A stretch of 64,000 nucleotides of DNA. Source: Novosphingobium profundi (lineage in GTDB: Bacteria; Pseudomonadota; Alphaproteobacteria; Sphingomonadales; Sphingomonadaceae). A program made the position numbers and the translations under genes. The stretch covers positions 1,054,001-1,118,000 of the forward strand of contig NZ_JAIVLF010000001.1 of the NCBI RefSeq assembly GCF_020524485.1, read 5' to 3'. Below the pieces are notes generated by a model. The model was not told the origin of the DNA. It did no database searches and saw only the letters and a list, made by a program, of their open reading frames with translations. Positions 23,807 to 56,394 of the stretch are shown here, one piece after another; within the stretch, counting starts at the first letter, position 1; each line of letters begins with the position of its first letter.

Positions 23807-24060
23807 TCCTGTCCTGACAAACGGGAGGCGTGCGCCCGAGCCATTGGCACCGCCTGCGCCTCCCGGTTCCTCGCCTTGCGGGTTTTCCTGTCCAAAAGGA
23901 GGAGGAAATCCCGACCTTTGCGTGCCCGGTGCAGCTTGCATCGCTTCGGGGCACGCCCTAGACCCGCAGCAGGATGGCCAGTCCAGGAGGGGTGGTCACC
24001 TGCGCGGAAGACCGACTTAGACCGAACCTGATACGACCTATTCCGGGCCCCGCCGAAGAA

Positions 24061-24089
24061 TGTCATGCTTTCGTCATGGAAGTGTCATT
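24061..24089 (+). promoter_or_regulatory. PhoB box upstream of pstS
   Basis: Three near-identical 7-bp blocks with 4-bp spacers: TGTCATG (24061), CGTCATG (24072) and TGTCATT (24083). It ends 46 bp before the pstS start. This is the clearest Pho box in the window and the best template for judging the others. Confidence 0.88.
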
Positions 24090-31919: not shown

Positions 31920-31948
31920 CGTCGCCGATTTGTCACCTGTCCGTCACA
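31920..31948 (+). promoter_or_regulatory. Candidate PhoB box for the atypical regulator gene
   Basis: Three blocks at 11-bp phase: CGTCGCC (31920), TGTCACC (31931) and CGTCACA (31942). It ends 44 bp before the regulator start and lies back-to-back with the minus-strand site at 31861-31889, so one divergent region may serve both transcripts. Confidence 0.6.
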
Positions 31949-31992: not shown

Positions 31993-32667
31993 ATGCGGCG
32001 TATTGATATCCTGTTGGCCAGCGAACTCTCAGGCGGCTACGCGCCGTTTCGCCACGACGATTTCGACGTGGTGCTGCATCGCTGGACAGACTATTGCGAA
32101 CTGCCGCTGATCGAGGGCGCCTTATGGGTCTTCGTGGATTGGGTGCTCCCCGAAATGTCGGGTCTGGAGCTGTGCCGCCGCCTGCGCGCCGATGCGCTGA
32201 CCGCCCATGCGCATGTGACGATGGTGCTAGAAGAGGACAATGTCGAGGATCGCAAGCGCGCGCTGCGCATGGGGGCGGATGACTACATGGTTGGTCCGCT
32301 CATGCGCAATGCGCTGCTCGACCGGGTGCTGGGAGCCAATGTCAGTGAGCATGATGCCACCGGTATCCGGACTGTGGCCCAGGGGGACCTTACGGTCGAT
32401 GTTGCGGCCTTCCAGGCGCGCTGGCAGGGCAAGCCCATTTCACTCATGCCCAACGAGCTGCGTCTCCTGCGCTACTTCATCGAGCATCCGGGGCGGGTCT
32501 TTACCCGCGCGCAGCTGATCGCGGCGCTGGGCAAGCAGGAGCCGCCGGTCGACGAGCGCACCGTGGACGTATGGATCGGCCGCCTGCGCCGTGCCCTCAA
32601 GGGCGTGGGGGCGGGCAATCCGCTGCGCACCGTGCGCTCGCTCGGTTACGTGTTCGACGCGGCCTGA
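31993..32667 (+). CDS. Atypical OmpR/PhoB-family response regulator
   Basis: 225-aa regulator with a receiver-like N-terminus and a clear winged-helix DNA-binding domain (LMPNELRLLRYFIEHPGRVF, ERTVDVWIGRLRRAL). The receiver keeps Asp49 (FVDWVLPEM) but lacks the acidic pair at its start (ILLASELSGG instead of a DD/ED pair), and the conserved Lys is replaced by Gly101 (DYMVGPLM). Such receivers usually work without normal phosphorylation. ATG 31993 has AAGGGG just upstream. No histidine kinase gene is adjacent. A Pho-type box precedes it and its C-terminal domain resembles PhoB, so it may act as a second-tier regulator; target genes are unknown. Confidence 0.8.
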   Translation: MRRIDILLASELSGGYAPFRHDDFDVVLHRWTDYCELPLIEGALWVFVDWVLPEMSGLELCRRLRADALTAHAHVTMVLEEDNVEDRKRALRMGADDYMVGPLMRNALLDRVLGANVSEHDATGIRTVAQGDLTVDVAAFQARWQGKPISLMPNELRLLRYFIEHPGRVFTRAQLIAALGKQEPPVDERTVDVWIGRLRRALKGVGAGNPLRTVRSLGYVFDAA

Positions 32668-34218: not shown

Positions 34219-36906
34219 TCAGAACTTGATCGAGGCGGACGCCTTGAACACCCGGCCCAGGTCGTAGGTATTGAACTGGACGTCGCCGTCTTCGAAGCTC
34301 TGGTATTCCTTGTGGGCGCGGCCCGTGAGGTTGCGGCCCTCGAACTTCAGTTCCAGTTCGCTCGCCCCGATCATGATGCCCTGGCGCACGATCACGTCGA
34401 TGGTGAAGCCGGGGTGCTCGAAGATGTCGGGCTGGCGGATGGTGCCATTGACGCCGCGGCTGGTCACGCGCTTGGAGGCGTAGTTGAGCATGATCGTCTG
34501 CTGCGAGAGGCTGTCGGTGTCTTCCAGGCCGAACTGCAGGTTGGCGATGTGCTTGGACTGGCCGGTCAGCGGCGCGCCGTCGACGAAGTAGTTGGTCGCG
34601 GCCGAGAGGAAGCCGTTGACGTTGGTGACGTCATCGGCGGTCACGTTGAGCTGCGACTTGGTGTAGGTGTAGTTCGCGTTGACGGCGATGCGGCGGGTCT
34701 CGAAGAACGAGCCCAGGTTGTAGAGGTCGAAGTACTTCTGCAGTTCGACTTCCGCACCGTAAAGATCGGCGCTGGGCGCGTTGGCGTAGCGGGTGAAGTA
34801 GCCGTTCGAGTAGAGCAGGTAGCTCTCGATCGGGTTCTTGATGTGCTTGTAGAAGCCACCCAGCGAGACATGCTCGTCGCGGTTGAAGTACCACTCCCAG
34901 CGCGCTTCGGCGTTGTAGAGCTGGCTGTCGATGAGCTGCGGGTTGCCCTGGTAGGTGCGGTTGGTTTCCGGATCGAAGAAGTTCTGGAAGATCAGCTCGC
35001 GGAACTGGGGGCGGGCGATGGTCTTCGAGCCGTTGATGCGGATCTGCATCTCGGGATCGATCTCGTAGGTCAGCGTGGCGGCCGGCAGGAAGTACTCGTT
35101 CTTCAGCGTCACGCCGCTTTCGGCCACGCCTTCGACCGGGACCAGCAGCGACTGCTCCTTGGCCCATTCCCAGCGCACACCTGCATCGAGGGTGAGGCCG
35201 TCGGCGAGCGTACCGTCGACCTTGCCGTAGAAGGCATGGTTGAGCAGGCGCGCGCGGTAATTGGCGTAAGGCGCGGTCGGGTCCTGGAGCTGCAGGTCGT
35301 AGTCGAGCCCGGTGCGATCAAGGTACCACTGGCCGGTCTGGAGCAGCACGTCGAGACGCGCGGTGCCCAGCGCTTCGATCAGTTCGGAATCGCCGTTGGC
35401 AATGACGAGGAACTGGCGCTGGCGGCTCTCGCGCGAGTTGATCTGGTAGGCATAGCCCACCGTGCCCGACCAGTTGGTCGAGAAACGATGGCTGACGTCG
35501 GCGCCCGCCGACCAGACATCCTCGTTGAGGCGCGAGAAGGAGATCGAGGTCGGCGCCGATCCGGTGCCGCTGCCCAGCGCGTTGGTGAACAGGTCACCCA
35601 CGCCGCCATCGCCGGTGTTGCGACGGATGTAGCGCGAGACGATCTCGTAGGGCGCGAGGCGCTTGGAGTTGGCGTACCCGGCGCGCAGGTCGATCGTGGT
35701 GTCGTCGGTGGGCTTGAACTCGCCGGTGAACTGGCTGTCGATCAACTGGCGTTCGTACCAGCCCGTGCTCTGTTCCATGAAGTCCCAGTCATCGTTCTGC
35801 TGGGGCTGCTTGAAGGAGGCGAGGGCCGCGTACTTGTCGGTGTCGTGGATATAGACGTTGGTCCAGCGGATCGAGTTGTCACCCCATTCGAGGCCCAGGC
35901 CAAGAAGGCCGTTGACGATCACGCGGTTGTCGCTCTGGACGGTGGTGCCGTCCTGGTCGCGGTCCTCGTAAGCGCCCGAGAGAAGCTGCGTCGACTGGCG
36001 CAGCGCCTGGCGGGTCTGCGTGGTGTTCGAGTAGCCCGCAGTCGCGATCACGCCGAGCGTCGCGCCGCCAAGGTCGAAGGAGGTGCCCGCCGAAAGATCG
36101 GCGCTGAAATTGGGCTGCGTGTTCTCGATGGTCTGGATCACCGAGTTGCGCGGCGTGAACAGGATCGAGCCGATGTCGTCGGCCAGCTCGCTGGTGGGGT
36201 TGAGCGCCAGGTTGCTGTCGAACAGCGCCTGCATGTCGTAGGGCACGCGGCGCAGGCCATTGTCGTAGCCCGTCCAGTCGGTCTTGGAGCCGTAGTAGGA
36301 ATAGCTCAGCTTGTTGGTTGTCTCGCTGTCCCAGCCAATGCCGCCGCCGATCTTGAGGAAGCTTTCCTCGGGCACGGCCTGGGTGGTCAGGTTGATCACG
36401 CCGCCGCCGAATTCACCCGGGAAGTTCACCGAGTAGCTCTTCTGGACCATCGAGGAGGCCACGACGCTGGTCGGGAAGAGGTCGAGGGGAACCACGCGCT
36501 TGAGCGGCTCGGGGCTGGGAAGGGGGGAGCCGTTGAGCAGCGCGAGCGAGTAGCGATCGCCCAGGCCACGCACGTAGACATAGCCATTGCCCACGACCGA
36601 AAGGCCGGTGACGTGGCCCAGAGCGCCTGCAATGTCGCCTTCACCGGTGCGCGCGATGTCTTCGCTGGAGAGAACCGAGAGGACCTCGGTCGCGGAACGC
36701 TCGACGTTGACGATACGCCGCCCGGTCACGATGATCGCGCCGCCGGGGATCGAAACGTCGGGGGCATCGCCTTCGGTTTCGTCCTGCGCCGTTTCGGCGG
36801 GAGCGGCAAGGGTTTCAGGCGTTGTATCGCTGTCCTGCGCTTGCGCGATACCCGGCGTCATCACCGTGGAGAGAAGCAGGAGCGGGACGAGCCGCGACTT
36901 GGTCAT
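34219..36906 (-). CDS. TonB-dependent outer-membrane receptor
   Basis: Outer-membrane transporter of 895 aa. The signal peptide (MTKSRLVPLLLLSTVMTPGIAQA) is given here by position, residues 1-23. A mature N-terminus with a TonB-box-like AIIVTGRR is followed by the plug domain (ALGHVTGLSVVGNGYVYVRG, then FPGEFGGGVINL) and a 22-strand barrel ending in Phe (ASASIKF). ATG 36906 has GAGGGGGAA about 8 nt upstream. It follows a secreted lipoprotein gene by 91 bp, and an 11-bp hairpin lies in that gap. The transported ligand is not evident; phased Pho-type sites upstream of the operon suggest a phosphorus-containing substrate (inference). Confidence 0.93.
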   Translation of the reverse strand: MTKSRLVPLLLLSTVMTPGIAQAQDSDTTPETLAAPAETAQDETEGDAPDVSIPGGAIIVTGRRIVNVERSATEVLSVLSSEDIARTGEGDIAGALGHVTGLSVVGNGYVYVRGLGDRYSLALLNGSPLPSPEPLKRVVPLDLFPTSVVASSMVQKSYSVNFPGEFGGGVINLTTQAVPEESFLKIGGGIGWDSETTNKLSYSYYGSKTDWTGYDNGLRRVPYDMQALFDSNLALNPTSELADDIGSILFTPRNSVIQTIENTQPNFSADLSAGTSFDLGGATLGVIATAGYSNTTQTRQALRQSTQLLSGAYEDRDQDGTTVQSDNRVIVNGLLGLGLEWGDNSIRWTNVYIHDTDKYAALASFKQPQQNDDWDFMEQSTGWYERQLIDSQFTGEFKPTDDTTIDLRAGYANSKRLAPYEIVSRYIRRNTGDGGVGDLFTNALGSGTGSAPTSISFSRLNEDVWSAGADVSHRFSTNWSGTVGYAYQINSRESRQRQFLVIANGDSELIEALGTARLDVLLQTGQWYLDRTGLDYDLQLQDPTAPYANYRARLLNHAFYGKVDGTLADGLTLDAGVRWEWAKEQSLLVPVEGVAESGVTLKNEYFLPAATLTYEIDPEMQIRINGSKTIARPQFRELIFQNFFDPETNRTYQGNPQLIDSQLYNAEARWEWYFNRDEHVSLGGFYKHIKNPIESYLLYSNGYFTRYANAPSADLYGAEVELQKYFDLYNLGSFFETRRIAVNANYTYTKSQLNVTADDVTNVNGFLSAATNYFVDGAPLTGQSKHIANLQFGLEDTDSLSQQTIMLNYASKRVTSRGVNGTIRQPDIFEHPGFTIDVIVRQGIMIGASELELKFEGRNLTGRAHKEYQSFEDGDVQFNTYDLGRVFKASASIKF

Positions 36907-36997: not shown

Positions 36998-38623
36998 TCA
37001 GGCGACCGGAAGACCGGTGCACAGGCTGCCGGTGCCGAAATCGGCGGTGGCGTTGTCGCAGGTCCAGCCGCGGAACCAGGTGTCGTTCGCGTCGCGCACG
37101 GCACCGATGTAGTCGACCACGTCGAAGAAGCTCGAGAAGTCAGTGATGTTGGCGTAGGCCACCACACCGCTCTCGTTCGAGCCGTTGACGAAGGTGCTGG
37201 TCAGCGTCGAGGTGATCGAGGCGTTGTTGTTGGTGCCGGCATTGAACATGTCTTCGGCCGTGTTCGTGCCCGAGTACTGGCTGCCCGTGCTCAGGAACGG
37301 ACCGGTGTCACCGCAGGTCATGACGACCGAGTTGGCGGTGAAGGTAGCCGAACCGGTGGCGGTACGGCCATCGACGCGGATGCACTCGTTGCTCGGCGTG
37401 TTGATGATGCCGTTGACGAAGTTGATGTCCGAGTCGCCGCGCACCAGGATGCTGGCTTCGTCCGAGTTGTCCGGACGGTTGCCCGACTGGATCGCGGTGA
37501 AGTTGGCGAAGGTCGAGCGCTGGCGGTCGGCCGGATCGGAGTTGATGTTGTTGTTCGAATCGATCTCGAAGAAGGCATCGCCTGCACCCGCACGCTGGAG
37601 CAGCAGCAGGTACTGGAAGTTGCCCTTGAGGCCGGTGTCGGTGTCGAGGCTGTCATCGTCGGCGTTGACCGCGATGTAGTGCTTCATGTTGACCGCGCCG
37701 CCGAAGAACTCCGAACCGTCGTCCGAGCTGTTGACGGTCTGGATGTAGTCGAGCGTGGTGCCCGTGCCCAGGCCGCCGCCGGTGAGCGACTGGAGTTCGG
37801 CATCGGGTGCCAGGTTGTAGCCCGAGTAACGGATCTGCACGTAGCGCATCGAACCGGCGCTGTAGCCGTTGTTGCGCCCGCCGAACGTGGCGGGGGTCGC
37901 TGCGCCTTCGGTCTCGCGCTGGCAGTCCTGCGTGGCGACGCTGCCGCCCGCGGTGCAGTCGGTGATGATGCCGCGGCCGAGCAGCACGATGCCGCCCCAC
38001 TGGCGGTCCGAGCTGTCGGTGGCCGAGCCGACGACGTTCTGGCGGCTGGTGAAGACGATCGGCGAGGAGGCGGTGCCGTTGGCCTGGATCGTGTTGCCGC
38101 GGTTGACGGCGAGCCAGGCGGGATCGGCGGCGTTCTCGGCGTAGACGATGACGCCCGGATCGATGGTCAGCTCAACTGCGGTGTCCGAGCTCAGGCTCGA
38201 GATGCCGGCGTTGAGGCACGAGGCAGTGGTGGTGGTGTAGGGCGAGCCCGAGGACGGGACCGAGAAACCGCCATCGCAGCCCACGTCCACGCGGCCGTTG
38301 ATGCGATAGAGAACGCCCGCTTCGTTGGGCAGACTGGAGCTGGCATCGACCAGCGCGGGCAGGGTGCAGATGCGCCAGGAATTGCCGTTGGGGTCCTCGA
38401 TGGTGCCGTCGTTCGACAGGCCGCCCGTCGCGTTGAAGGTCGGGCATTCGGCGGCCGCTTCGATCAGGCCCGTGGTCGGCGTGGGCGTGGGCGTCGGCGT
38501 GGTGCCGCCACCGTTGTTGACCACGACGCTTCCGGCGCCGGGCGAGGCAATGTCATCGGCCCCGCAGCCCGCAAGAGCGAGAGCGCTGCAGCCCAGGAGC
38601 ATCAGGCCAGAGAATTTCTTCAC
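36998..38623 (-). CDS. Exported lipoprotein, predicted right-handed beta-helix fold
   Basis: 541-aa lipoprotein: the signal peptide ends in the lipobox LALAGC, then a Gly/Thr/Pro-rich linker (PTPTPTPTT). The body is rich in Gly, Asn, Ser, Thr and Asp with repeated short strands such as LTIDPGVIVYAE and IQANGTASSPIVFTSRQN, typical of a parallel beta-helix; about ten Cys residues could form disulfides. No catalytic motif is recognised. The start is GTG 38623 with GGGGGAA 7 nt upstream. It is the first gene of the unit with the TonB receptor. A role as a surface or periplasmic ligand-capture partner is an inference from this pairing. Confidence 0.75.
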   Translation of the reverse strand: MKKFSGLMLLGCSALALAGCGADDIASPGAGSVVVNNGGGTTPTPTPTPTTGLIEAAAECPTFNATGGLSNDGTIEDPNGNSWRICTLPALVDASSSLPNEAGVLYRINGRVDVGCDGGFSVPSSGSPYTTTTASCLNAGISSLSSDTAVELTIDPGVIVYAENAADPAWLAVNRGNTIQANGTASSPIVFTSRQNVVGSATDSSDRQWGGIVLLGRGIITDCTAGGSVATQDCQRETEGAATPATFGGRNNGYSAGSMRYVQIRYSGYNLAPDAELQSLTGGGLGTGTTLDYIQTVNSSDDGSEFFGGAVNMKHYIAVNADDDSLDTDTGLKGNFQYLLLLQRAGAGDAFFEIDSNNNINSDPADRQRSTFANFTAIQSGNRPDNSDEASILVRGDSDINFVNGIINTPSNECIRVDGRTATGSATFTANSVVMTCGDTGPFLSTGSQYSGTNTAEDMFNAGTNNNASITSTLTSTFVNGSNESGVVAYANITDFSSFFDVVDYIGAVRDANDTWFRGWTCDNATADFGTGSLCTGLPVA

Positions 38624-38777: not shown

Positions 38778-38945
38778 TTCATGTGTCAAGGTGGGCGCGC
38801 GCGGAAATTGGGCTGAGACGACTCACGTATTTCTGCGGGGTTCGGATCAAGATTGCAGTTTTATGACACTCCTGTCATTTTGCTTGAGGGCTGTGGCTTT
38901 TCGCGCACAATCGGCCGCATTGATGAACTCGAGGGAGAAAAACAC

Positions 38946-39323
38946 ATGTCCTTGACCGCCGCAGCCCTGGCTCTCCTTGCTGGCCAGTCCGCCCTTTCGC
39001 TCACGGTCGAGCTGCCGCGCGCCGAATCGCAGGATGTCGCCTACGCCGAACTCGTGGCCGGGCAGGACCAGGCGGCGCTTGCCAAGCTGCTGGCCGCGCG
39101 CGAGGTGCGCGGGGAGGACCCTGCGCTCCTGATCAACCTGGGGGCGGCCTACACCCGCCTTGGCCGCGTCCATGACGCGCGCAAGGCCTACGATGCCGCC
39201 ATTGTCAGCGACGAGCGCTATGATCTCGAAACCGGCAGCGGCAAGTGGATCGATTCGCGCTACATCGCCCGCACCGCCAAGCGCGAAGGGCTCGACGCGC
39301 AGCGCACGCTCGCCATGCTCTGA
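38946..39323 (+). CDS. Small exported TPR-like protein
   Basis: 125 aa with an N-terminal hydrophobic segment (LTAAALALLAGQSALSL), probably a signal peptide, and one TPR-like helix pair: DPALLINLGAAYTRLGRVHDARKAYDAAI. The rest is a charged tail. ATG 38946 has GGGAG 8 nt upstream. It is divergent from the lipoprotein/TonB-receptor operon with a 322-bp shared region. One good Pho-type block (TGTCATT, 38873) lies upstream, but its neighbours are weak. Function unknown; position suggests a partner of that uptake system. Confidence 0.7.
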   Translation: MSLTAAALALLAGQSALSLTVELPRAESQDVAYAELVAGQDQAALAKLLAAREVRGEDPALLINLGAAYTRLGRVHDARKAYDAAIVSDERYDLETGSGKWIDSRYIARTAKREGLDAQRTLAML

Positions 39324-39727
39324 GGTTTCGCCTCCCTTTTTCGAGTACCGGGCCCACCGCCCGACACGCGCGCACGCGCGAATCTTTGACCTTAGGTGGG
39401 CCCTTGTCTGCGTCCTCTTCCTTTCCCGATCAGGTGCGCTAGCGCACGCCTGTGATTGCCTTGCACGCGGCTCAACGATGTGGCCGCGGCTGGACGCCTC
39501 ATCCCTTTTGGTCCTGCTCCTACCCCCGATGCCCTACCTCGGATGGTCGCCTTTCGGGTCGCGCCGGCACCATCTAGAATGGGCTCCTGCTTCGTCAGCG
39601 CCTGCGTCGCCAGCCGGGCCCCGTGGGCGCTCTGGCGCAGGGGAGATGGGAGAATGACGTCTTCGCCGTGTGATCGTCACAAGCTTGTCACAAGATTCGC
39701 GCAATCCGCCCCCAGACACAGGGCAGG
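39324..39727. other. Intergenic region upstream of the VirB cluster
   Basis: 404 bp without a convincing gene. It holds a perfect 9-bp inverted repeat GGGCCCACC / GGTGGGCCC (about 39351-39406) after the TPR-like gene, which may act in termination, and the phased sites at 39675-39692 before virB2. Confidence 0.5.
39675..39692 (+). promoter_or_regulatory. Candidate PhoB box upstream of the virB cluster
   Basis: CGTCACA (39675) and TGTCACA (39686) are 11 bp apart with a 4-bp spacer, 35 bp before the virB2 start. A third in-phase block (TCGCGCA) is weak. Spacing and sequence match the better Pho-type sites in this window. Confidence 0.5.
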
Positions 39728-40081
39728 ATGATTCGAGTTATGACGTTCGTTTGCGTTTCACGGCGATCGCTTTCCAAGGTTTTTTCGGGGCTCCTGGCCC
39801 TTGCAACGATGCTTCTCAGCCCCGTGCGCGCTTTCGCGCAGGTGGCCGGTCAGCAGGACCCTGCCGGTTCGGGCCCCATCGTCAACGCGCTCACCTGGTT
39901 GCAGGGTACCCTGCTTGGCAATGTGGCGACGGCGGTGGCCGTTATGGCGGTGGCGGCCGTGGGCTTTGGCATGCTGACAGGCCGCATGAACTGGCGCTTT
40001 GGCGCGACGGTCATCATTGGCGTCTTCGTGCTGTTCGGTGCGGGCGCGATCGTATCGGGCATCCAGCAGGTCGCAGGCTGA
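39728..40081 (+). CDS. virB2: VirB2/TrbC-family pilin-like subunit
   Basis: 117-aa precursor of a type IV secretion pilin. A long signal sequence (about residues 1-38, ending AFAQ) is followed by two hydrophobic helices (about 62-85 and 90-115) separated by a short basic loop (GRMNWRFG), the normal VirB2 topology. ATG 39728 has AGGG 4 nt upstream; ATG 39740 is an alternative. First gene of virB2-B3-B4-B6-B9-B10-B11. The product is probably processed and assembled in the inner membrane. Confidence 0.85.
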   Translation: MIRVMTFVCVSRRSLSKVFSGLLALATMLLSPVRAFAQVAGQQDPAGSGPIVNALTWLQGTLLGNVATAVAVMAVAAVGFGMLTGRMNWRFGATVIIGVFVLFGAGAIVSGIQQVAG

Positions 40082-40087
40082 GCCGCG

Positions 40088-40369
40088 ATGGCACTTGCCC
40101 GCTTCCCGGTTCACAGGGCGCTGACCCGGCCGCAGATGTTTGCCGGAGTGACCTTCAGCTACTTCATCATCAACGGGATGGTGACGACCGAGGTCTTCCT
40201 GCTCACCAAGAACTTTGCGGCGTTGCTCGCTTTCGCGGTGATGCACGCGATCGGGTACCTCGCCTGCCTGCGTGAACCGCGGGTCTTCGATCTCTGGCTC
40301 AAGAAAGTCAGCAAGTGTCCCCGCGTGCGCAACTGGAAGCGCTGGGGCTGCAACAGTTACGCGCCCTGA
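40088..40369 (+). CDS. virB3: VirB3-family inner-membrane protein
   Basis: 93 aa, with the family start ALTRPQMFAGVTFSYF and two hydrophobic segments (about residues 18-35 and 43-60), then a basic C-terminal tail. VirB3 works with the VirB4 ATPase in pilus assembly. It begins 6 bp after virB2 and ends 17 bp before virB4; no fusion to virB4, unlike some systems. Confidence 0.88.
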   Translation: MALARFPVHRALTRPQMFAGVTFSYFIINGMVTTEVFLLTKNFAALLAFAVMHAIGYLACLREPRVFDLWLKKVSKCPRVRNWKRWGCNSYAP

Positions 40370-40386
40370 GGGGCGCTCGCGGGGGA

Positions 40387-42828
40387 ATGACAATGGGTCG
40401 TCGTTTCAAGGACGTGCTGACGGGCTGGGCCGCCAAGGAAGCGGCGGCGGGTGACCGTCTGCCCTATGCGCAGCTTGTCGATGAAAGCGTGGTGCGCCTG
40501 CGTGATGGTTCGCTGGCGCTGGCGCTGATGGTGCCGGGGCTCGCGTTCGAGACGGCCGACACCGATGAGCTCAACGCCCATGTGGCGACGCGCGAGGTGC
40601 TGCTGCGCTCCTCGCTTGATGCGCGCTTCGTGCTCTATCACCACGTCATCCGCCGCCGCGTCGAAGTCGAACTCGACGGCCACTTCGAGGACCCGCTCGC
40701 CGCGCATATTGACGCACGCTGGCGTGAGCGGACGCGCTCGGGCGACCTGTTCGTCAACGACCAGTTCATTGCGCTGGTGCGCCGTCCTGCACGCGGCAAG
40801 GCGGGCTGGGCCGATCGCCTTTCGCGCAGCTTGCGTGGCAAGAAGGGCGAAGATGGCACCGGTATCGACCCCGCCGACGTGCGCGCGCTGCGCGCCGCTG
40901 CCACCGCCATGGTGGCCTCGCTCGGCGCTTACGGGGCGCGACTTCTGGGCGATTACGAAGGGACCACGGGGACCTGTTCGGAAGTCCTCGAACTGTTGAG
41001 CGCGCTCTACAACGGTGAGATGCGGCCCGTGCGCCGCCCGGCTGCGGGCACCGACATCGGCCACATGCTGCCCTATCGCCGCATCAACTTCGGGCTCGAC
41101 GCGCTGGAGCTGCGCGGGGCGGATGGCCGTCCTGCCTTCGGCGCCATGGTCAGCCTGAAGGAATACCCCGATGCGACTTCGCCCGGGCTGACCGATGCGC
41201 TGCTGCGCCTGCCCGCCGAGATGGTGCTGACCGAAACCTACGCTCCGTGTGATCGCCAGATCGCGCGCGAGCGCATCGATCTTGCCATTCGCCGCCTGCG
41301 CTCGGCCGACGAAGAGGCCATGGCCGAGCGTTCCGAGATGGTCTCCGCGCGCGATGCGCTGGGCACTGGCGCGGTCGGTTTCGGCGACCATCACCTCTCG
41401 GTACTGGTCCGCGCGGACACGCTCGACGAACTCGATACATTGAGCGCGGCCTGCGCGGCCTCGCTCGCCGATGCGGGCGCGGTCGCGGTGCGCGAGGATG
41501 CGAACCTGGAGCCCGCTTTCTGGGGGCAGTTCCCCGGGAACGAAGAGTTCCTTGTGCGCCGCGCGCTCATCTCCAGCGCCAACATGGCCTGTTTCGGCTC
41601 GCTCCATGGCTTTTCGCTGGGGCAGGCGAGCGGCAACCACTGGGGCAATGCAGTCACGCTGCTGGCGACCACCAGTTCGACCCCGTTCTTCTTCAACTTC
41701 CACCAGGGCGATCTTGGTAACTTCACCGTCATCGGACCGTCGGGTTCGGGCAAGACAGTTGTCATGAACTTCCTCGCCGCGCAGGCGCAGAAGTTCGCGC
41801 CCCGCACGATCCTCTTCGACAAGGATCGCGGCGCCGAGGTTTTCCTGCGCGGTATCGGTGGCACCTACAGCCGTATCGCGGCGGGGCACCCGACCGGCTT
41901 CAACCCGCTCGCGCTGCCCGATACTGACACGAACCGCGCGTTCCTGCGCGACTGGCTGGGCGTCCTGCTCGAGGCCAAGGGCGCGGAGGAGATGGCGACG
42001 ATCGCAAGCGCGGTCGATGCGGCCTACCACAACGATGCCTCGCTGCGCCGTCTCTCGCATTTCCGCGAACTGCTGGCCGGAGCCCGTCGTCCCGAACCGG
42101 GCGATCTCGCCTCGCGTCTCGATGCCTGGATTGCAGGGGGCGAACACGGCTGGCTCTTCGACAACGCCGAGGACCGGCTCGATCTCGACACCCGCGTCCT
42201 GGGCTTCGACATGACCGCGCTTCTGGAAAGCCCGCGCCTGCGCACGCCGGTGATGATGTACCTGTTCCACCGCATCGATGAGCGTCTGGACGGCGAGCCG
42301 ACCATGATCCTCATCGACGAGGGCTGGAAGGCGCTCGATGATGAGGTCTTCGCCGCGCGCATCCGAGACTGGCTCAAGACCCTGCGCAAGCGCAACGCGC
42401 TCGTGGGTTTTGCCACCCAGTCGGCGCGCGACGCGCTCGACAGCCGCATTTCGACCGCGCTGGTCGAGCAGACCGCGACCATGCTCTTCATGCCCAACTC
42501 GCGCGCGCGGCCCGAGGATTACTGCGAGGGCTTTGGTCTTTCGCTCCACGAACTGGAAGTGATCCGCACGCTGCCCGCGCATTCGCGCTGTTTCCTCATC
42601 CGCCAGAGCGATGCCTCGGTCGTGGTGCGTCTCGATCTTTCGGGCAGTCCCGAGGTGCTGACCGTCCTGTCGGGCCGCGAGAGCACCGTGCGCAAGCTCG
42701 ATGCCCTGCGCGAGCGCTATGGCGATGCGCCGCGCGCCTGGTACCCCGCGCTTACCGGCCAGCCCTGGCCGGGTGACGGCGATGCCGCTGCGGCTGATGA
42801 CGCGCTCTGGATCGAGGCGGCCGAGTAA
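40387..42828 (+). CDS. virB4: VirB4-family type IV secretion ATPase
   Basis: 813-aa AAA+-like ATPase that energises pilus biogenesis and substrate transfer. The N-terminal CagE/TrbE/VirB domain (about residues 1-400) is followed by the ATPase domain with Walker A GPSGSGKT (Lys456) and Walker B TMILIDEGWKAL; FATQSARDALDS follows. ATG 40387 is used; ATG 40393 is nearly as good. It follows virB3 by 17 bp and precedes virB6 by 5 bp. Confidence 0.93.
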   Translation: MTMGRRFKDVLTGWAAKEAAAGDRLPYAQLVDESVVRLRDGSLALALMVPGLAFETADTDELNAHVATREVLLRSSLDARFVLYHHVIRRRVEVELDGHFEDPLAAHIDARWRERTRSGDLFVNDQFIALVRRPARGKAGWADRLSRSLRGKKGEDGTGIDPADVRALRAAATAMVASLGAYGARLLGDYEGTTGTCSEVLELLSALYNGEMRPVRRPAAGTDIGHMLPYRRINFGLDALELRGADGRPAFGAMVSLKEYPDATSPGLTDALLRLPAEMVLTETYAPCDRQIARERIDLAIRRLRSADEEAMAERSEMVSARDALGTGAVGFGDHHLSVLVRADTLDELDTLSAACAASLADAGAVAVREDANLEPAFWGQFPGNEEFLVRRALISSANMACFGSLHGFSLGQASGNHWGNAVTLLATTSSTPFFFNFHQGDLGNFTVIGPSGSGKTVVMNFLAAQAQKFAPRTILFDKDRGAEVFLRGIGGTYSRIAAGHPTGFNPLALPDTDTNRAFLRDWLGVLLEAKGAEEMATIASAVDAAYHNDASLRRLSHFRELLAGARRPEPGDLASRLDAWIAGGEHGWLFDNAEDRLDLDTRVLGFDMTALLESPRLRTPVMMYLFHRIDERLDGEPTMILIDEGWKALDDEVFAARIRDWLKTLRKRNALVGFATQSARDALDSRISTALVEQTATMLFMPNSRARPEDYCEGFGLSLHELEVIRTLPAHSRCFLIRQSDASVVVRLDLSGSPEVLTVLSGRESTVRKLDALRERYGDAPRAWYPALTGQPWPGDGDAAAADDALWIEAAE

Positions 42829-42833
42829 AGATC

Positions 42834-44069
42834 ATGGCCAGCGACACCTGCCAGCGCCTGACCGAACTTGCCTCTGAGGGGGTGGCCCCGGCTCTGCGCG
42901 CGGTCGACTGCGTGGCGAACGAGATGGCCGCGGGCGCATTCGGACGCCTGTTTGGAAGCGACGGCGCGCTCGTGCCCGCAATCTCGATCCTGCTCGCGCT
43001 CTACATCGCGCTCTTTGCCTTCCTCCTGATGACCGGCCGCGCTTCGGTGGGCGTGTCCTCGCTCATGCCGCGCATGATCACGATCGGCGTGGTGCTCCTC
43101 TTCACCAGCAGCTGGCTTGCCTACCAGGGCATGGTCTGGAGCTTTGCGCTCGCCGGTCCCGACTGGATTGCGGGGCAACTGATGGGGGCGGACGGTTCGG
43201 CCACGCAGATCTTCGCGGACCGCATCGACATCGTCTTTGGTGTCATCAATGAGATTGGCACCAATGCCGGATCGGGCAGCGGCTCGGCCGGAGAGGCGGC
43301 CAAGGACGCGGCTGACGCGGCCTCGATGATGTCGCCCGAAGGGCTGATGTGGATGGGCGCGATCCTGCTTCTGCTGGGGACCGTGGGCATTCTCCTCACC
43401 GCGCGCATTGCGCTGGGCATCCTCATCGCTCTGGGGCCGCTCTTTGTCATTCTTGGGCTTTTTGGTGCAACCCGCGGGCTCACCGCAGGCTGGTTGCGTG
43501 GCATGGTGCTGACCGCCTTTACGCCCCTTTTCGTGGTCATGGGCGGAGGGATCATCCTGGAACTGCTCGTGCCCATCGTCTCCGCGCTCGTCAGTTCGGC
43601 GCAGATGGGGGAGATCGACGGGCGCGCGGCCATGGCATTCTTCACGGTCGCGGCGGTCCACGTCGCGCTCATGGTGATGGTGTTCAAGGTCGCGGGCACG
43701 ATGGTCTCGGGCTGGCGCGTCTTCGGACTGGCATCTGCCCGCGAAGAGCGTGCGGGATCGAGCGCCGCCGCGCCCGCGCCTGCGCCTGTGGCCCCGATGC
43801 TCCAGCCGCTGGGCGTTGCCACCTCGCGCACCGGGCACATGAGCGCGATGGCCGCCAGCCAGGCTGCGCAGGCTGGCCCGGGCGGCAACGGCGGGGAGGG
43901 CGCCTCGGGCCGCTCGGGTGAGCGGCGCACCGTGACCACTCACGTCACCGGTGGTGGCATTGCGCCCGCCGGAGCCGGACAGGACATGCGCGCGAAGGGC
44001 ATTGGCAGCCGCTTTCGCAGCGCTTCGAACGACACCGGCCGCGCGCCGGTCAAGGAGAAGACACGATGA
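42834..44069 (+). CDS. virB6: VirB6/TrbL-family polytopic membrane protein
   Basis: 411 aa with about six hydrophobic segments between residues 40 and 310, including LVPAISILLALYIALFAFLL and the later LGILIALGPLFVILGLFG. A Gly/Ser/Ala-rich region lies between segments. The last 100 residues are an Ala/Gly/Pro-rich cytoplasmic or periplasmic tail. VirB6 is part of the inner-membrane channel. Its stop codon overlaps the virB9 start (ATGA). Confidence 0.85.
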   Translation: MASDTCQRLTELASEGVAPALRAVDCVANEMAAGAFGRLFGSDGALVPAISILLALYIALFAFLLMTGRASVGVSSLMPRMITIGVVLLFTSSWLAYQGMVWSFALAGPDWIAGQLMGADGSATQIFADRIDIVFGVINEIGTNAGSGSGSAGEAAKDAADAASMMSPEGLMWMGAILLLLGTVGILLTARIALGILIALGPLFVILGLFGATRGLTAGWLRGMVLTAFTPLFVVMGGGIILELLVPIVSALVSSAQMGEIDGRAAMAFFTVAAVHVALMVMVFKVAGTMVSGWRVFGLASAREERAGSSAAAPAPAPVAPMLQPLGVATSRTGHMSAMAASQAAQAGPGGNGGEGASGRSGERRTVTTHVTGGGIAPAGAGQDMRAKGIGSRFRSASNDTGRAPVKEKTR

Positions 44070-44914
44070 CGCACGCCTTCACGCTGCGCACCACACTTTC
44101 GCGCCTGATGCTGGGATCGGTTCTCGCCGCAGGGCTGCTGAGCGCCCCTGTCCGCGCCGATGACCGCCTGGTCGAACACGCCTACCGGGCGGACGAGGTC
44201 GTTACCATTCCGGGGCGCACCACGGTTCAGGCCACCATCGCCTTTGGCCGCAACGAAGCGATCGAGAACGTCGCGGTGGGCGATAGCTCGCAGTGGCAGA
44301 TCACGCCCAACAAGCGCGCCGACCTCCTGTTCGTGAAGCCGCTGGAGACCAGCGCGCGCACCAACATGACGGTTGTCACGAACAAGCGCACGTACTTCTT
44401 CGACCTTGTCGCAGGAGCCAAGGCCAAGCCGCTCTACATGCTGCGTTTCACGTACGCGGACGAGGAGGAGCCGGTGGAGGACACGCCGCTTGCCCGTCCC
44501 AGCGAGGCGGAGCGCCTGGCCCATCTCGATCCGGCCGAGCGCGCTGTCGCCGAGGGCGATCCCCTGGCGATGCCCGCCGAGGCGTCCGCGCTCAACTTCG
44601 CGTGGGAGCGCAAGGGCGCGGCCAAGCTGCAGCCCGTGCGGGTCTACGACGACGGGCAGTCGACCTACCTCGTCTGGCCCGAGCAGACACCGAACCTGCC
44701 CGCCATCCTTGTCGAGAACGAGAAGGGCGACGAAGGGCCGGTCAACTATGCCGTGCGCGGCCCCACCATCGTGGTGAGCGATGTGCCCGACCGCATCATC
44801 CTGCGCCGGGGCAAGGACGTGGCTGAGCTGCTCAACACCGTTCCGCTCGGCGAACGGCCCGCACCGGCTCTCGCACAGCGTGCAGGTACAACCCCGCCGG
44901 TCTCGGCGCAGTGA
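44066..44914 (+). CDS. virB9: VirB9/CagX-family outer-membrane core protein
   Basis: 282 aa with a signal peptide (about residues 1-31). The N-terminal domain has YRADEVVTIPGRTTVQATIA and the C-terminal CagX domain has FAWERKGAAKLQPVRVYDDG (SFAW-like fold) and VVSDVPDRIILRRGK. With VirB7 and VirB10 it forms the outer-membrane ring; no virB7-like lipoprotein gene is seen nearby. Coupled to virB6 by 4-bp overlap; virB10 starts 14 bp later. Confidence 0.92.
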   Translation: MTHAFTLRTTLSRLMLGSVLAAGLLSAPVRADDRLVEHAYRADEVVTIPGRTTVQATIAFGRNEAIENVAVGDSSQWQITPNKRADLLFVKPLETSARTNMTVVTNKRTYFFDLVAGAKAKPLYMLRFTYADEEEPVEDTPLARPSEAERLAHLDPAERAVAEGDPLAMPAEASALNFAWERKGAAKLQPVRVYDDGQSTYLVWPEQTPNLPAILVENEKGDEGPVNYAVRGPTIVVSDVPDRIILRRGKDVAELLNTVPLGERPAPALAQRAGTTPPVSAQ

Positions 44915-44928
44915 AAAGGGCCTGAACG

Positions 44929-46029
44929 ATGGCGCCTCATTCCTCTTCCGTTTCCGCTCTGCACGAGCGTCGCTTTGGCGCCAACGCGACCGACCCGCGC
45001 GAGGGTGAGGGGGGCGAGGTTATCGACCTTGCCACGCGTAACGTCCTGCCCCAGGTCTCGCAGCGCAAGAAAGCCGATGGCCTGGGCCTCGTGGCGGGGA
45101 TCGTCTTCGTCGCGGCCTTGGGCGGCCTTACCTTGTGGATGATGGACGGCGCGCGCAACGCCGCGCCCGAGCAGGACCTTGCCGCCGCGCCCGTGCCGGT
45201 TCCCGAAGCGCCTGTAGCGCCCCCCTCGGCGCGCCCCGCTCCGGCGCCGGTGCCGCGTCCCGCCGCTCCGCTGGCCGCACCTGCGCCTGCGCCCGTTCTT
45301 GCCAACGATCCCAACGCCCAAGCGGGGCCTCAGGGCAACCCTTACGCCAACCCGACGGTCGTCTATGACGCCAGTGCAGGCGCGGTCGGCGCGCCGGGCC
45401 CTGCCGGGGGAGAGGGGAAGGCGGGCAGCGCCCCGAACGATGACTTTGCCTCGCGCCTTGCAGGTACGAACTCGACCGCTGCGGCCGCACGTACCTTCAA
45501 CCCCGCGACCACGGTGACACAGGGCACACTGATCCCGGCCGTCCTTGAAACCGCGATCGACACCGAAGTGCCCGGCTACGTGCGCGCCATCGTTTCGACC
45601 GACGTGCGCAGCTTCGATGGCAAGAAGGTGCTGATCCCGCGCTCCTCGCGCCTCATCGGCCAGTACAAGAGCGGCCTGACCGCCGGACAGAAGCGCGCCT
45701 ACGTGATCTGGACCCGCGTGATCCGCCCCGATGGCGTTTCGGTCGACATCGGTTCGCCCGCAATTGCCTTTGGCGGTGAGACGGGCCTTCCGGGCAAGGT
45801 CAACACCCACTTCTTCGAACGCTTCGGTTCGGCCATGCTGCTTTCGGTCGTCGATGGCCTGACGACGCTGGCAACCGGCGGCGCGTCGGTCGTCGTGGCA
45901 GGCGGTTCTTCGGCGGCCGCGCAGGCCGTCCAGGGCAGCTCGAACATCGGCCCCACGATCCGCGTGCGCCAGGGTGAGCCGATCCGCGTCTTCACCGCCA
46001 AGGACCTCGACTTCGGTCCGGTGCAGTGA
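44929..46029 (+). CDS. virB10: VirB10/TrbI-family channel protein
   Basis: 366 aa, spanning both membranes. A short cytoplasmic tail, one transmembrane helix (about residues 52-72, GLVAGIVFVAALGGLTLWM) and an Ala/Pro-rich periplasmic linker precede the TrbI domain. The domain has GTLIPAVLETAIDTEVPGYV, VLIPRSSRLIGQY and FFERFGSAMLLSVVDG. It senses ATP use by VirB4/B11 and gates the outer ring in known systems. It lies between virB9 and virB11. Confidence 0.93.
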   Translation: MAPHSSSVSALHERRFGANATDPREGEGGEVIDLATRNVLPQVSQRKKADGLGLVAGIVFVAALGGLTLWMMDGARNAAPEQDLAAAPVPVPEAPVAPPSARPAPAPVPRPAAPLAAPAPAPVLANDPNAQAGPQGNPYANPTVVYDASAGAVGAPGPAGGEGKAGSAPNDDFASRLAGTNSTAAAARTFNPATTVTQGTLIPAVLETAIDTEVPGYVRAIVSTDVRSFDGKKVLIPRSSRLIGQYKSGLTAGQKRAYVIWTRVIRPDGVSVDIGSPAIAFGGETGLPGKVNTHFFERFGSAMLLSVVDGLTTLATGGASVVVAGGSSAAAQAVQGSSNIGPTIRVRQGEPIRVFTAKDLDFGPVQ

Positions 46030-46062
46030 TCGTCCACGCAATTACCAAGGCAGGATTTCGCC

Positions 46063-47127
46063 ATGGCCGACGTTCTTTCGCTGGTGCCTGCGGCTGCGGG
46101 CGCGCCAATGTCTGAGAACATGCCCGAGGTGCAGGTGGAGGCGTCCGTTCCGCGCAGCGTCTATCTCGACGCCTACCTGGCTCCTTTACGCCCCTGGCTC
46201 GACCGCGAGACGGTGACCGAGATCCTGGTCAACCGTCCTGGCGAGATCTGGGTGGAGGATGCCGCGCACGCCGATGGCAGCGCGGGGATGAAGTGCATTG
46301 CGCTTCCCGAGATGGACAACCGCCTGCTCCAGCGCCTCGCGGAGCAGGTCGCGCGGATCAGCCATCAGGGCATCAACCGCGAGCATCCGCTGCTCTCGGC
46401 CACGCTTCCAGCCTATGCCGGGCAGTCCGGTGCGCGCATCCAGCTGGTCGGGCCGCCCGCGACGCGCAGCAACTGGGCGATGGCGATCCGTCGTCACCGT
46501 CTGTTGAACCTGCCGCTCGACGCTTATGACCGTGGCCCCATTACTCCGCCGCAAGAGGCGCCGACGCCCGATCCGATGGCGCAGCCCATCGCCTTCCTCA
46601 AGGACGCGATCCAGCGCCGCCGCACGATCCTGATTTCGGGCGGCACCTCGACGGGCAAGACCACCTTTCTCAACGCCATGCTGGCCGAGATCCCGCAGGA
46701 CGAGCGGGTCGTGCTGGTGGAGGACACCGCGGAACTCAAGCTGCCGGGCGCCAATGGTGTCGGCCTTATCGCGGTCAAGGGTGAGTTGGGGGAGGCCAAG
46801 GTCTCGGCCAACGACCTGCTTCAGGCCGCATTGCGCCTGCGCCCCGACCGCATCGTGCTGGGCGAGCTGCGCGGGACCGAGACGGTCTCGTTCCTGCGCG
46901 CCATCAACACCGGGCACCCCGGCTCGTTCTCGACCGTCCACGCCAACACGCCGCGCGGCGCGCTGGAGCAGATCGCGCTCATGGCGATGCAGTCGAATAT
47001 CGGCCTCACCCGCGCCGAGACGCTGGAGTACGCCGCCAGCGTGATCGACATCGTCGTCCAGCTGGATCGTCAGGGCGGCAAGCGCGGGATCGGCCAGATC
47101 GCCGAGAGCCGCACACTGGTCGCGTGA
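46063..47127 (+). CDS. virB11: VirB11-family traffic ATPase
   Basis: 354-aa hexameric ATPase of the secretion-ATPase family. The N-terminal domain has VTEILVNRPGEIWVED, the ATPase domain Walker A SGGTSTGKTTFLNAML (Lys199), the Asp box VEDTAELKL, Walker B RPDRIVLGELRG and the His box TGHPGSFSTVHAN. Last gene of the cluster; a perfect hairpin follows 7 bp after the stop. No virD4 coupling protein, relaxase or virB8 follows in the window. Confidence 0.95.
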   Translation: MADVLSLVPAAAGAPMSENMPEVQVEASVPRSVYLDAYLAPLRPWLDRETVTEILVNRPGEIWVEDAAHADGSAGMKCIALPEMDNRLLQRLAEQVARISHQGINREHPLLSATLPAYAGQSGARIQLVGPPATRSNWAMAIRRHRLLNLPLDAYDRGPITPPQEAPTPDPMAQPIAFLKDAIQRRRTILISGGTSTGKTTFLNAMLAEIPQDERVVLVEDTAELKLPGANGVGLIAVKGELGEAKVSANDLLQAALRLRPDRIVLGELRGTETVSFLRAINTGHPGSFSTVHANTPRGALEQIALMAMQSNIGLTRAETLEYAASVIDIVVQLDRQGGKRGIGQIAESRTLVA

Positions 47128-47188: not shown

Positions 47189-48796
47189 TCAGTTGGTCTG
47201 GGCGCTGTAGGCCGAGCTCATCATCTCATCGACGTCGAGGTCGAAGCTCTTCTGACGGGGCGGGAATTCCTGCAAAGTCGCCATGAACTTGGCGACTTGC
47301 TGCCCGGCCGCACCCAGCGTCCAGGAATGGTTTTCCTGCCATTCGTCATATCCGCGCGCGTCGAGGAAGCGCTCGAAGGGATCGAGCTTGAGGTTGATGA
47401 TGTAGGGGGTGACGAGCTGCTCCTGCACGCCGTTGAACCACTTGTCCTGGCTCTTGAACAGGAACTTCCAGTCCCCGTAGCGCAGCCCGTGCAGGGTGGT
47501 CTCGGTGAAGTAATAGAACTCCTTGCGCTTGGTGGGGCCACGCCCGGAGACCAGGTCGGTCTGGTCGACGCCATCGAGATGGACCTTGTAGGTCATGTTG
47601 CCGATGCGCTTGCCGCTCTTGAGTTCGGCGACCAGATTGGGCTGCCCGAGGTGGGACATGATGGTGGGGACCCAGTCCTCCATGGTCATGAATTCGCCGG
47701 TCGTGGTGCCCGCCGGAATGTGCCCGGGCCAGGACACCATCATGGGGACGCGAAAGCCGCCTTCCCAGCCGCCCACGCCTTTTTCGCCATGGAACGGGGT
47801 GTTGCCGCCATCGGGCCAGGAATTGCAGGCCGGGCCGTTGTCGGTCGAGAACATGACCATGGTGTTGTCGGCCACGCCTAGTTCCTCGAGGTGGTCGAGC
47901 AACTGGCCGACCTGATCGTCGAGCTGTTCCATGCCATCGGCGTAGAGACCATAGCCCGTGACGCCGTCGTACTCGGGCGGCAGGTTGGTGCGGTAGTGCA
48001 TGCGCGTGGTGTTGTGCCACACGAAGAAGGGCGTGCCAGCGCGGGCAGCATCGCTTATGAAGCGTTTGGATTCCTTGAGGAACTCATCGTCGAGATGGCG
48101 TTGGCGCTCCTGTCCGAAGGGCCCCAGGTCCTCGATCTTCTGGCCGCCGTTGCCATCGGCCCAGGTATGGACGACACCGCGTTGCTGGAAGGCGGGGCTG
48201 TCCTTGGGGTAGTCGTACTGCTCGGGATATTCGCCCGCGTTCAGGTGGTAGAGAATTCCCATGAACTCGTCGAAGCCATGCGCGGTGGGCAGGTGTTCAT
48301 CCCGGTCGCCCAGGTGGTTCTTGCCGAACTGGCCGGTCGCATAGCCCAGCGGCTTGAGCATCTCGGCGAGCGTCGGGTCTTCCTTCTGGAGGCCGAGCTC
48401 GGAGCCGGGCAGGCCGACCGTGCTCATGCCGGTGCGGATCGGGTACTGGCCGGTGATGAAGGCGGCGCGGCCCGCAGTGCACGAGGCCTGCGCGTAGTGG
48501 TCCATGAACAGCATGCCCTTCTGGGCGATGCGGTCGATGTTGGGGGTCTTGTGGCCCATCATGCCGCGGTGGTAGGCGCTGAGGTTCCACATGCCCACGT
48601 CATCGGCCCAGATGATCAGGATGTTGGGGCGGCTGGCGCTACCCGACTGGGCGAGCGCCCGGCGCGGGGAGGCGAGCTTGCCGATCACGGGCAGCGCGGC
48701 CAGCAGGCTGGAGCCCTGGAGCAGCTTGCGCCGTGAGACGTCGGACGGCGCGCGCTTTTCGGTAAGTGTGAGGGGAGGGCGGTTCTCTGTGTCCAT
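47189..48796 (-). CDS. Tat-exported arylsulfatase-family hydrolase
   Basis: 535-aa sulfatase with twin-arginine leader SRRKLLQGSSLLAALP, so exported folded to the periplasm. The metal site begins with ILIIWADDVGMWN; the active-site residue is Cys106 in ASCTAGRAAFITGQ, to be converted to formylglycine. The motif is C-T-A-G-R (CxAxR) instead of the classical CxPxR. FGKNHLGDRDE, STDNGPACNSWPDGG and HYRTNL follow. ATG 48796 removes an unlikely N-terminal extension. Substrate unknown (sulfate ester or phosphonate ester are both possible in this family). It stands alone between the VirB cluster and ppx. No formylglycine-generating enzyme gene is nearby. Confidence 0.87.
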   Translation of the reverse strand: MDTENRPPLTLTEKRAPSDVSRRKLLQGSSLLAALPVIGKLASPRRALAQSGSASRPNILIIWADDVGMWNLSAYHRGMMGHKTPNIDRIAQKGMLFMDHYAQASCTAGRAAFITGQYPIRTGMSTVGLPGSELGLQKEDPTLAEMLKPLGYATGQFGKNHLGDRDEHLPTAHGFDEFMGILYHLNAGEYPEQYDYPKDSPAFQQRGVVHTWADGNGGQKIEDLGPFGQERQRHLDDEFLKESKRFISDAARAGTPFFVWHNTTRMHYRTNLPPEYDGVTGYGLYADGMEQLDDQVGQLLDHLEELGVADNTMVMFSTDNGPACNSWPDGGNTPFHGEKGVGGWEGGFRVPMMVSWPGHIPAGTTTGEFMTMEDWVPTIMSHLGQPNLVAELKSGKRIGNMTYKVHLDGVDQTDLVSGRGPTKRKEFYYFTETTLHGLRYGDWKFLFKSQDKWFNGVQEQLVTPYIINLKLDPFERFLDARGYDEWQENHSWTLGAAGQQVAKFMATLQEFPPRQKSFDLDVDEMMSSAYSAQTN

Positions 48797-48974
48797 GAGC
48801 CGGTTTCCAGTCCTTGCAATGGGCGTGCCGTCGATGCCGACGACCGACAGCAAGGCTGGCGCAGGGCTGGAGTGCGCCCCATCGGGATAAACCCTGATGC
48901 GAGCGGGGGATGTACTGGAGAGACCGAAAGTAAACGATTTTCGTGTGTGGAGTGGGCGAAGCCGAAGGGGGGGA

Positions 48975-52813: not shown

Positions 52814-53022
52814 GTGACCCTCTTCTGGTGGTCTTGGGGTGCGGCCAGGGGCGCGGATTTCGGCCCGTGGCACGCACGTGTCTTTAAAAACGCGGCCCTT
52901 GCCAGTTCTCGATGACGCTTTTGCGGCAAATGGTACACGTAAAGGGCACTGTAACGAAAACTCTTTCTAGGCCAAGTGAACAGCGTTGCAGTGCAGCAGC
53001 GTTTCGCGCAAAGTCACCCGCG

Positions 53023-56000: not shown

Positions 56001-56394
56001 GCTCGTCAAGGGACGTCACGTCATCACCTGCAATGGGCGCCGTGTGCCGATGACGATGACCGGGCCGGAAGAAGGCGTGGGCGGCGTGCGCTACAAGGCG
56101 TGGTGGCCGGCCGAGTGTCTGCACCCGCTGCTGGAACCGCACACTCCGCTCACCTTCGACATCTTCGACACCTGGAACGGACGCTCGCTGGGCGGCTGTG
56201 TCTACGAGGTCGCCCATCCGGGTGGGCGCAACTACGATACGGTGCCCGTCAACGGCTACGAGGCCGAAGCGCGGCGCAAGGCGCGCTTCACGCCGCACGG
56301 CCATTCGCCGGGACCCATGGCGCCGCCGCCCGAAGAGATGCCGGGTGAATTTCCCCATGCCCTCGATCTGAGACGTCCGCCGCGTGTCCACTAG
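53023..56394 (+). CDS. Transglutaminase-like protein fused to DUF2126 domain
   Basis: 1123 aa. The N-terminal half (about residues 1-300) is a transglutaminase-like cysteine-protease fold with a complete catalytic triad: Cys179 ([10 protein letters not shown]), His228 (DLHAWAEAF) and Asp244 (ALDATSG). The C-terminal half is the DUF2126 (COG4196) domain with [13 protein letters not shown] and [12 protein letters not shown]. This architecture is known in a widespread operon type with ATP-grasp/alpha-E and a second transglutaminase, predicted to make or modify peptides. No signal peptide. ATG 53023 gives the family start. It overlaps the next gene by 11 bp. Confidence 0.85.

Follow-up and report, generated by a model that had tools for sequence, protein, structure and literature searches.

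A predicted PhoB-controlled type IV secretion system without VirB8 and VirD4 may replace type II secretion in bringing an ElpS-like lipoprotein to the surface of sphingomonads

Introduction

In Caulobacter, the phosphate-starvation lipoprotein ElpS (cc0170) and the TonB receptor cc0171 are encoded directly before the gspC-N genes of a type II secretion system (T2SS), and a similar elpS-receptor-T2SS arrangement is described in Sphingomonas alaskensis and others (PMC2996285). The Caulobacter T2SS belongs to the PhoB regulon (PMC11208175), and lipoproteins in which the acylated Cys is followed by a Gly/Asp-rich stretch are carried to the surface by T2SSs through a GspN route (PMC12802150). Clusters of virB genes have been reported from Citromicrobium and Erythrobacter, for which DNA import or gene exchange was proposed (PMC3338782, PMC4919336, PMC2702493). 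Two Erythrobacter strains are marked there as lacking VirB8 (PMC2702493), one of which, Erythrobacter sp. NAP1, is among our loci (L109), and a TonB-dependent transporter is mentioned as a neighbor of the Erythrobacter cluster (PMC4919336). Going by the available text of these sources, both the gene set and the absence of VirB8 are already known (PMC3338782, PMC2702493). Here we analyze a 64,000-nucleotide stretch of the Novosphingobium profundi genome (assembly GCF_020524485.1, contig NZ_JAIVLF010000001.1, positions 1,054,001 to 1,118,000; hereafter the window), which carries a virB-type type IV secretion system (T4SS) near the gene of an ElpS-like lipoprotein, u541. Comparing sequences across sphingomonads, we hold with a little better than even confidence that this predicted PhoB-controlled T4SS, lacking VirB8 and VirD4, replaces the T2SS in bringing u541 to the cell surface.

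Results

A conserved seven-gene T4SS

The initial annotation of the window, made from its letters alone, described seven intact, tightly packed virB genes in a phosphate-gene neighborhood. Pfam matches and coordinates agree with this: virB2-B3-B4-B6-B9-B10-B11 all score above the gathering cut-off, are intact and lie close together.

39728..40081, forward strand: virB2, pilin (PF04956, 3.6e-19)
40088..40369, forward strand: virB3 (PF05101, 5.9e-28)
40387..42828, forward strand: virB4, ATPase (ATG at 40387, 813 aa; TIGR00929, 8.9e-214, above cut-off)
42834..44069, forward strand: virB6 (PF04610, 2e-30)
44066..44914, forward strand: virB9 (PF03524, 3.5e-50)
44929..46029, forward strand: virB10 (PF03743, 4.6e-50)
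46063..47127, forward strand: virB11, ATPase (TIGR02788, 2.2e-85, above cut-off)

The Walker A motifs are intact in both ATPases (GPSGSGKT in VirB4, GGTSTGKTT in VirB11). Measured against a VirB/VirD4 type IVA system, the cluster supplies the VirB4 and VirB11 ATPases, VirB3, VirB6, VirB9, VirB10 and the VirB2 pilin, and it contains neither VirB8 nor the VirD4 coupling protein. A small TPR gene flanks it on one side and a sulfatase on the other; beyond them, phoR-, phosphate-porin-, pstSCAB-, phoU- and phoB-type genes lie on one side and ppx and ppk on the other, which confirms the phosphate-gene surroundings. The sulfatase (47189-48853, between virB11 and ppx) is probably a recent insertion, since it is matched at this spot only in the nearest relative (L040). 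Among named genomes, from which the best 80 of 285 stretches with a VirB4 relative were used, the nearest locus among the matches listed is that of Novosphingobium sp. BW1 (VirB4 98%). Synteny across sphingomonads, proposed as a check at the outset, revealed the same virB order and a shared neighborhood in relatives from many genera. By these comparisons, the cluster is a dedicated chromosomal T4SS, conserved in relatives, without VirB8 and VirD4 genes.

Distribution of T4SS, T2SS and u541

We used one set of 296 Sphingomonadales genomes for all counts of T4SS, T2SS and u541, calling a T4SS orthologue when VirB4 was at least 64% identical to the window VirB4 (the search query started at 40390, the gene ATG being at 40387) and a T2SS when GspD scored above the TIGR02517 cut-off. 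T4SS orthologues occur in 89/296 genomes and GspD in 139, and the two almost never meet: one genome (G030) has both, 88 have the T4SS alone, 138 have GspD alone and 69 have neither. GspD is therefore found in 1/89 genomes with the T4SS versus 138/207 without it (Fisher p 2.7e-30, uncorrected for phylogeny). The same contrast holds within the window's own genus, with GspD in none of eight T4SS genomes versus five of eight others. In two T4SS genomes (G194 and G220), matches resembling GspD reach about 1e-82 and stay below the cut-off. In the window genome (15 contigs, 99.99% complete), there is no match to a type II GspD at 1e-40, and its single secretin over the cut-off sits in a Tad pilus locus (RcpC/CpaB, pilus-type secretin).

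What the two groups of genomes share is u541 with its TonB receptor. In the window, u541 and the genes around it are as follows.

36998..38623, reverse strand: u541, lipoprotein resembling ElpS (signal sequence and LAGC lipobox by eye; Thr/Pro linker; parallel beta-helix predicted)
34219..36906, reverse strand: TonB-dependent receptor of the TonB-Xanth-Caul type (Pfam TonB receptor; TIGR01782, 7.2e-48, below its cut-off)
38946..39323, forward strand: small TPR-like protein, divergent from u541 (TPR matches below Pfam cut-offs; signal-like N-terminus by eye)
31993..32667, forward strand: PhoB-like response regulator (Trans_reg_C, 1.3e-20; receiver match only from profile position 46)

The assignment of u541 to the ElpS family (PF28492) comes through its homologues, as a lipobox lipoprotein beside a TonB receptor: the nearest one, P0005 of Novosphingobium decolorationis, is 98% identical and carries PF28492 according to the protein database. 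Confidence in the predicted parallel beta-helix is good (mean pLDDT 87.9), and after the acylated Cys the protein reads CGADDIAS, by eye a Gly/Asp-type stretch. The u541 proteins of T2SS loci and those of T4SS loci can be aligned end to end, and the lipobox Cys is invariant among them, as are several Cys, Gly and Asp positions.

By genome, u541 is present in 82/89 T4SS genomes, in 116/138 with GspD only and in 1/69 with neither (G092, in about 430 contigs), so that 198/199 u541 genomes carry a T4SS or a T2SS. For genomes with both coordinates available, it lies within 10 kb of virB4 in 70/79 with the T4SS and is no more than 12 kb from gspD in 52/71 with the T2SS. The TonB receptor neighbors u541 beside either system: of 20 sphingomonad loci chosen away from the T4SS, 11 have u541 and receptor next to gspC and gspD, and a Brevundimonas locus (L174), from the family of Caulobacter, has the order u541-receptor-gspC-gspD. 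Many T4SS loci have the TPR-like gene next to u541, as do some T2SS loci, and the PhoB-like regulator, whose receiver appears by eye to have lost the N-terminal acidic residues and the late Lys, is found upstream of the receptor in many T4SS/u541 loci. The order shared among relatives, with pieces absent in some loci, is PhoB-like regulator, TonB receptor, u541, TPR gene and virB genes.

T4SS bearers and T2SS bearers are intermixed on the u541 tree, where the label changes seven times, at least five of these changes being forced by the starred branches; the tree is that of a gene and has some long branches, transfer of u541 could add label changes, and the T4SS label of named loci was assigned without a GspD search there. 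The u541 of G110, a genome with GspD and no T4SS match, nests among those of T4SS bearers. As a separate observation, Phenylobacterium deserti of the Caulobacteraceae (L070) has a T4SS with u541 and TonB receptor that is nested inside the sphingomonad trees, which suggests that the whole T4SS-u541-receptor module was transferred horizontally.

Components missing from the cluster

The window had been described as lacking virB1, virB5, virB7, virB8 and virD4. For virB8, virB5, virB7 and VirD4 this stands as far as the cluster is concerned: with 5 bp between virB4 and virB6 and a 4-bp overlap of virB6 with virB9, there is no room for virB8, virB7 or virB5. The virB6-virB9 gap is at most 147 bp in 92/95 measurable loci, so no virB8 fits there, and it is virB8-sized (684-827 bp) in the other three, whose VirB4 identity is 53-55%. 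The case of VirB1 is different. A gene for a VirB1-like transglycosylase (SLT domain) was detected in 63 loci of relatives, lies within 6 kb of virB4 on the same strand in 67/100 loci examined and ends just upstream of virB2 in loci where this was read out, so that in many relatives it is a part of this T4SS. None is present in the window, and the genome has an unlinked homologue with 69% identity over 175 aa.

That the missing genes and a relaxase lie together in a mobile element elsewhere had been named as an observation that would count against a dedicated system. The genome's sole VirB8 and sole VirD4-type protein over the cut-off are indeed on another contig (C4:733826-734437 and C4:741507-742871), in one Trb-type element, which encodes a tyrosine integrase, a TraG-type protein and ATPases of the VirB4 and VirB11 types, so that in form the objection applies. 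This element spans L006:14778-16097 to L007:6135-8222, with a TonB receptor further on (L007:13089-15479). However, supply in trans is not general, because VirB8 matches and strong VirD4 matches are alike absent from 59/89 T4SS genomes. VirB8 is usually held essential in T4SSs, and yet this conserved system is kept in 62/89 genomes without any VirB8 match genome-wide at E 1e-3 (27/89 have one). A strong VirD4 match (E 1e-50 or better) is found in 20/89 genomes and not in 69/89, and any VirD4 match at 1e-5 in 43/89 and not in 46/89. No relaxase appears among the neighbors that were given Pfam hits, no relaxase model having been run near the cluster or genome-wide.

Other VirB8-less T4SSs were seen in the order. 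A 7-Mb genome of the same genus (G213) has two such loci (L131 and L132, on C107 and C59; VirB4 69% and 65%), of which the second match (65%) spans a stop; neither u541 nor GspD is over the cut-off in this genome. In other families, VirB8-less T4SSs at L133 and L138 lie beside a two-component system with phoR/phoB-like matches, and these genomes have GspD.

Conservation of predicted Pho boxes

The initial annotation had pointed to a possible Pho box before virB2. Scoring sites out of 14 against a consensus taken from general knowledge, we predict three boxes at the locus.

39674..39691, forward strand: predicted Pho box of the virB operon (TCGTCACAAGCTTGTCAC), conserved in relatives
38852..38869, reverse strand: predicted Pho box of u541 (GTGTCATAAAACTGCAAT), 11/14
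31930..31947, forward strand: predicted Pho box of the PhoB-like regulator (TTGTCACCTGTCCGTCAC), 12/14, 45 bp before the likely ATG at 31993

The box of the virB operon (TCGTCAC-AAGC-TTGTCAC) ends 36 bp upstream of the virB2 ATG. By score alone it is unremarkable in the window, where 13 sites reach at least 11/14 versus about 11 expected, and it is conservation that bears out the earlier suggestion. All expected counts for relatives come from shuffles that preserve base composition only, and the scored loci are mutually related. Before the VirB1-like first gene, a box of at least 12/14 is found in 50/67 loci (0.14 expected) and one of at least 11/14 in 59/67 (1.24 expected), mostly 50-60 bp from the aligned start. 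In the 110 bp before virB2, 29/91 loci reach at least 11/14 (1.9 expected); all 29 are without the VirB1-like gene and nearly all are from Novosphingobium, the others being L053 (Sphingomonas) and L065 (Sphingomonadaceae). In a control of 574 regions around internal starts, one reached at least 12/14 and four at least 11/14. Conservation thus establishes the virB box as real, and control by PhoB is predicted from it.

The lipoprotein gene has the same mark beside both secretion systems. In the 300 bp before u541, a box of at least 11/14 occurs in 70/77 T4SS loci (3.1 expected); in T2SS loci, 8/13 have such a box for u541 (0.7 expected) and 6/13 for gspC (0.1 expected). The box of the PhoB-like regulator is weakly conserved (9/61 relatives at 11/14 or more versus 1.0 expected), and the TonB receptor has none in 75 T4SS loci and 13 T2SS loci. 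Three Pho half-sites 11 bp apart (24060-24088), upstream of the likely pstS start inside the longest open reading frame, make a fair internal reference for the motif. Elsewhere in the window, 52912-59760 carries in a row genes for a DUF2126 amidoligase, a circularly permuted ATP-grasp protein with an Alpha-E domain and transglutaminase-like proteins.

Discussion

Because this T4SS is found almost only in sampled genomes without a T2SS, it likely does the job of the T2SS. In the mechanism we propose, phosphate starvation would let PhoB switch on u541 and virB2-B11; u541 would leave the cytoplasm by Sec and then be acylated; and the VirB machine would take it from the periplasm, as the T2SS takes its substrates, with the VirB2 fiber, powered by VirB4 and VirB11, playing the part of the T2SS pseudopilus. 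Surface u541 would then cooperate with the TonB receptor in phosphate scavenging. A periplasmic client fits, because without VirD4 there is no coupling protein through which a T4SS could load cytoplasmic substrates. We include an indirect form in which the T4SS would export a protein acting on u541. As a general account, which we put forward tentatively, as possible rather than probable, a conjugation-type machine that shed VirB8 and VirD4 and came under PhoB control would replace the T2SS by passing Sec-exported periplasmic proteins through the VirB9-VirB10 channel, driven by the VirB2 fiber, and such swaps would have happened several times in sphingomonads.

Several observations weigh against replacement of the T2SS in this role. 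Caulobacter ElpS crosses the outer membrane without the T2SS, which is needed only for ElpS release, probably through a secreted protease, and T2SS production in Caulobacter is constitutive (PMC2996285). Since ElpS makes that crossing unaided by the T2SS, an enzyme with u541 as its target may instead be the shared client, or else the link may be regulatory. Both systems are reported as over-represented in Qipengyuania (PMC9241875), and three of our genomes (G181, G079 and G054) carry VirB8-less relatives (VirB4 52-59%) together with GspD. In addition, no u541 match was obtained in seven of the 89 T4SS genomes; in six of these, the T4SS locus has the VirB1-like gene and no u541, TPR gene or receptor beside it (at L184, one of the u541-less loci, a weak receptor match lies about 6 kb off), so the T4SS must have another use in them.

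The exclusion test makes no correction for phylogeny, and the T4SS genomes concentrate in some genera. This concentration also favors another account: an old, vertically inherited T4SS may persist in lineages that happened to lose the T2SS, without standing in for it. In Erythrobacter, the virB4 phylogeny tracks the genomes (PMC4919336), and the three genomes in which VirB8-less kin coexist with GspD fit this account. We nevertheless judge it unlikely, as the changes of label that are forced on the u541 tree, the contrast within the genus and the position of the G110 lipoprotein all speak against it, as does the linkage of both T4SS and T2SS to the same Pho-boxed lipoprotein. Chance retention of a degenerate conjugation operon would explain the absence of VirB8, VirB5, VirB7 and VirD4 genes from the cluster, but is hardly credible for a locus whose gene order is kept in relatives from many genera, whose Pho box is conserved and whose ATPase motifs are intact.

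Other functions can be imagined for a retained machine. Chromosomal T4SSs elsewhere deliver effectors, and a contact-dependent system induced by phosphate starvation and aimed at bacteria or hosts would be of that kind; we consider it very improbable, given that the cluster has no VirD4 and that no effector- or immunity-like gene is seen among the Pfam-annotated neighbors, where no dedicated effector search was run. Uptake or release of DNA, which might for instance supply phosphorus during starvation, suits Pho control, and DNA import was proposed for the same seven-gene set in two Citromicrobium genomes (PMC3338782). The initial annotation entertained this as well, and its picture of a dedicated chromosomal system with a possible Pho box and no conjugation coupling protein has held up, both the system and its predicted box being conserved in relatives. 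Its DNA uptake or release part found no support, the comparison pointing to the T2SS niche and to an ElpS-like lipoprotein: the cluster is without VirD4, no DNA-handling gene occurs among the Pfam-annotated neighbors or in the shared neighborhood (competence genes were not searched), and such a machine leaves the T2SS exclusion and the tie to u541 unexplained. We regard it as improbable.

If the T4SS does replace the T2SS, one secretion machine would have taken the place of an unrelated one for the same client and within the same regulon. It would also give a role to the virB cluster of Erythrobacteraceae and Novosphingobium, described as an incomplete DNA-transfer operon (PMC3338782). Among the matches listed in the open-access literature, we found no prior report of a Pho box, an ElpS-like partner or T2SS exclusion for this T4SS.

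The Ptl T4SS of Bordetella resembles the system described here in having no VirD4 and a substrate that is first exported by Sec, but unlike it keeps a VirB8 homologue, has a different substrate and is not known to be linked to phosphate. The Citromicrobium virB clusters have the identical gene set (PMC3338782), whereas the available text of the Citromicrobium and Erythrobacter accounts mentions no Pho box, T2SS exclusion or lipoprotein. With the T2SS/GspN lipoprotein route, u541 shares a stretch that is by eye of the Gly/Asp type, in a genome in which no T2SS secretin was found. The closest parallel is elpS-cc0171-gspC..N of Caulobacter. It differs from our locus in that no T2SS secretin was found in the genome here and the neighbor is a VirB T4SS; in both, a lipoprotein and a TonB receptor stand beside a secretion system under phosphate control, which for our locus is predicted.

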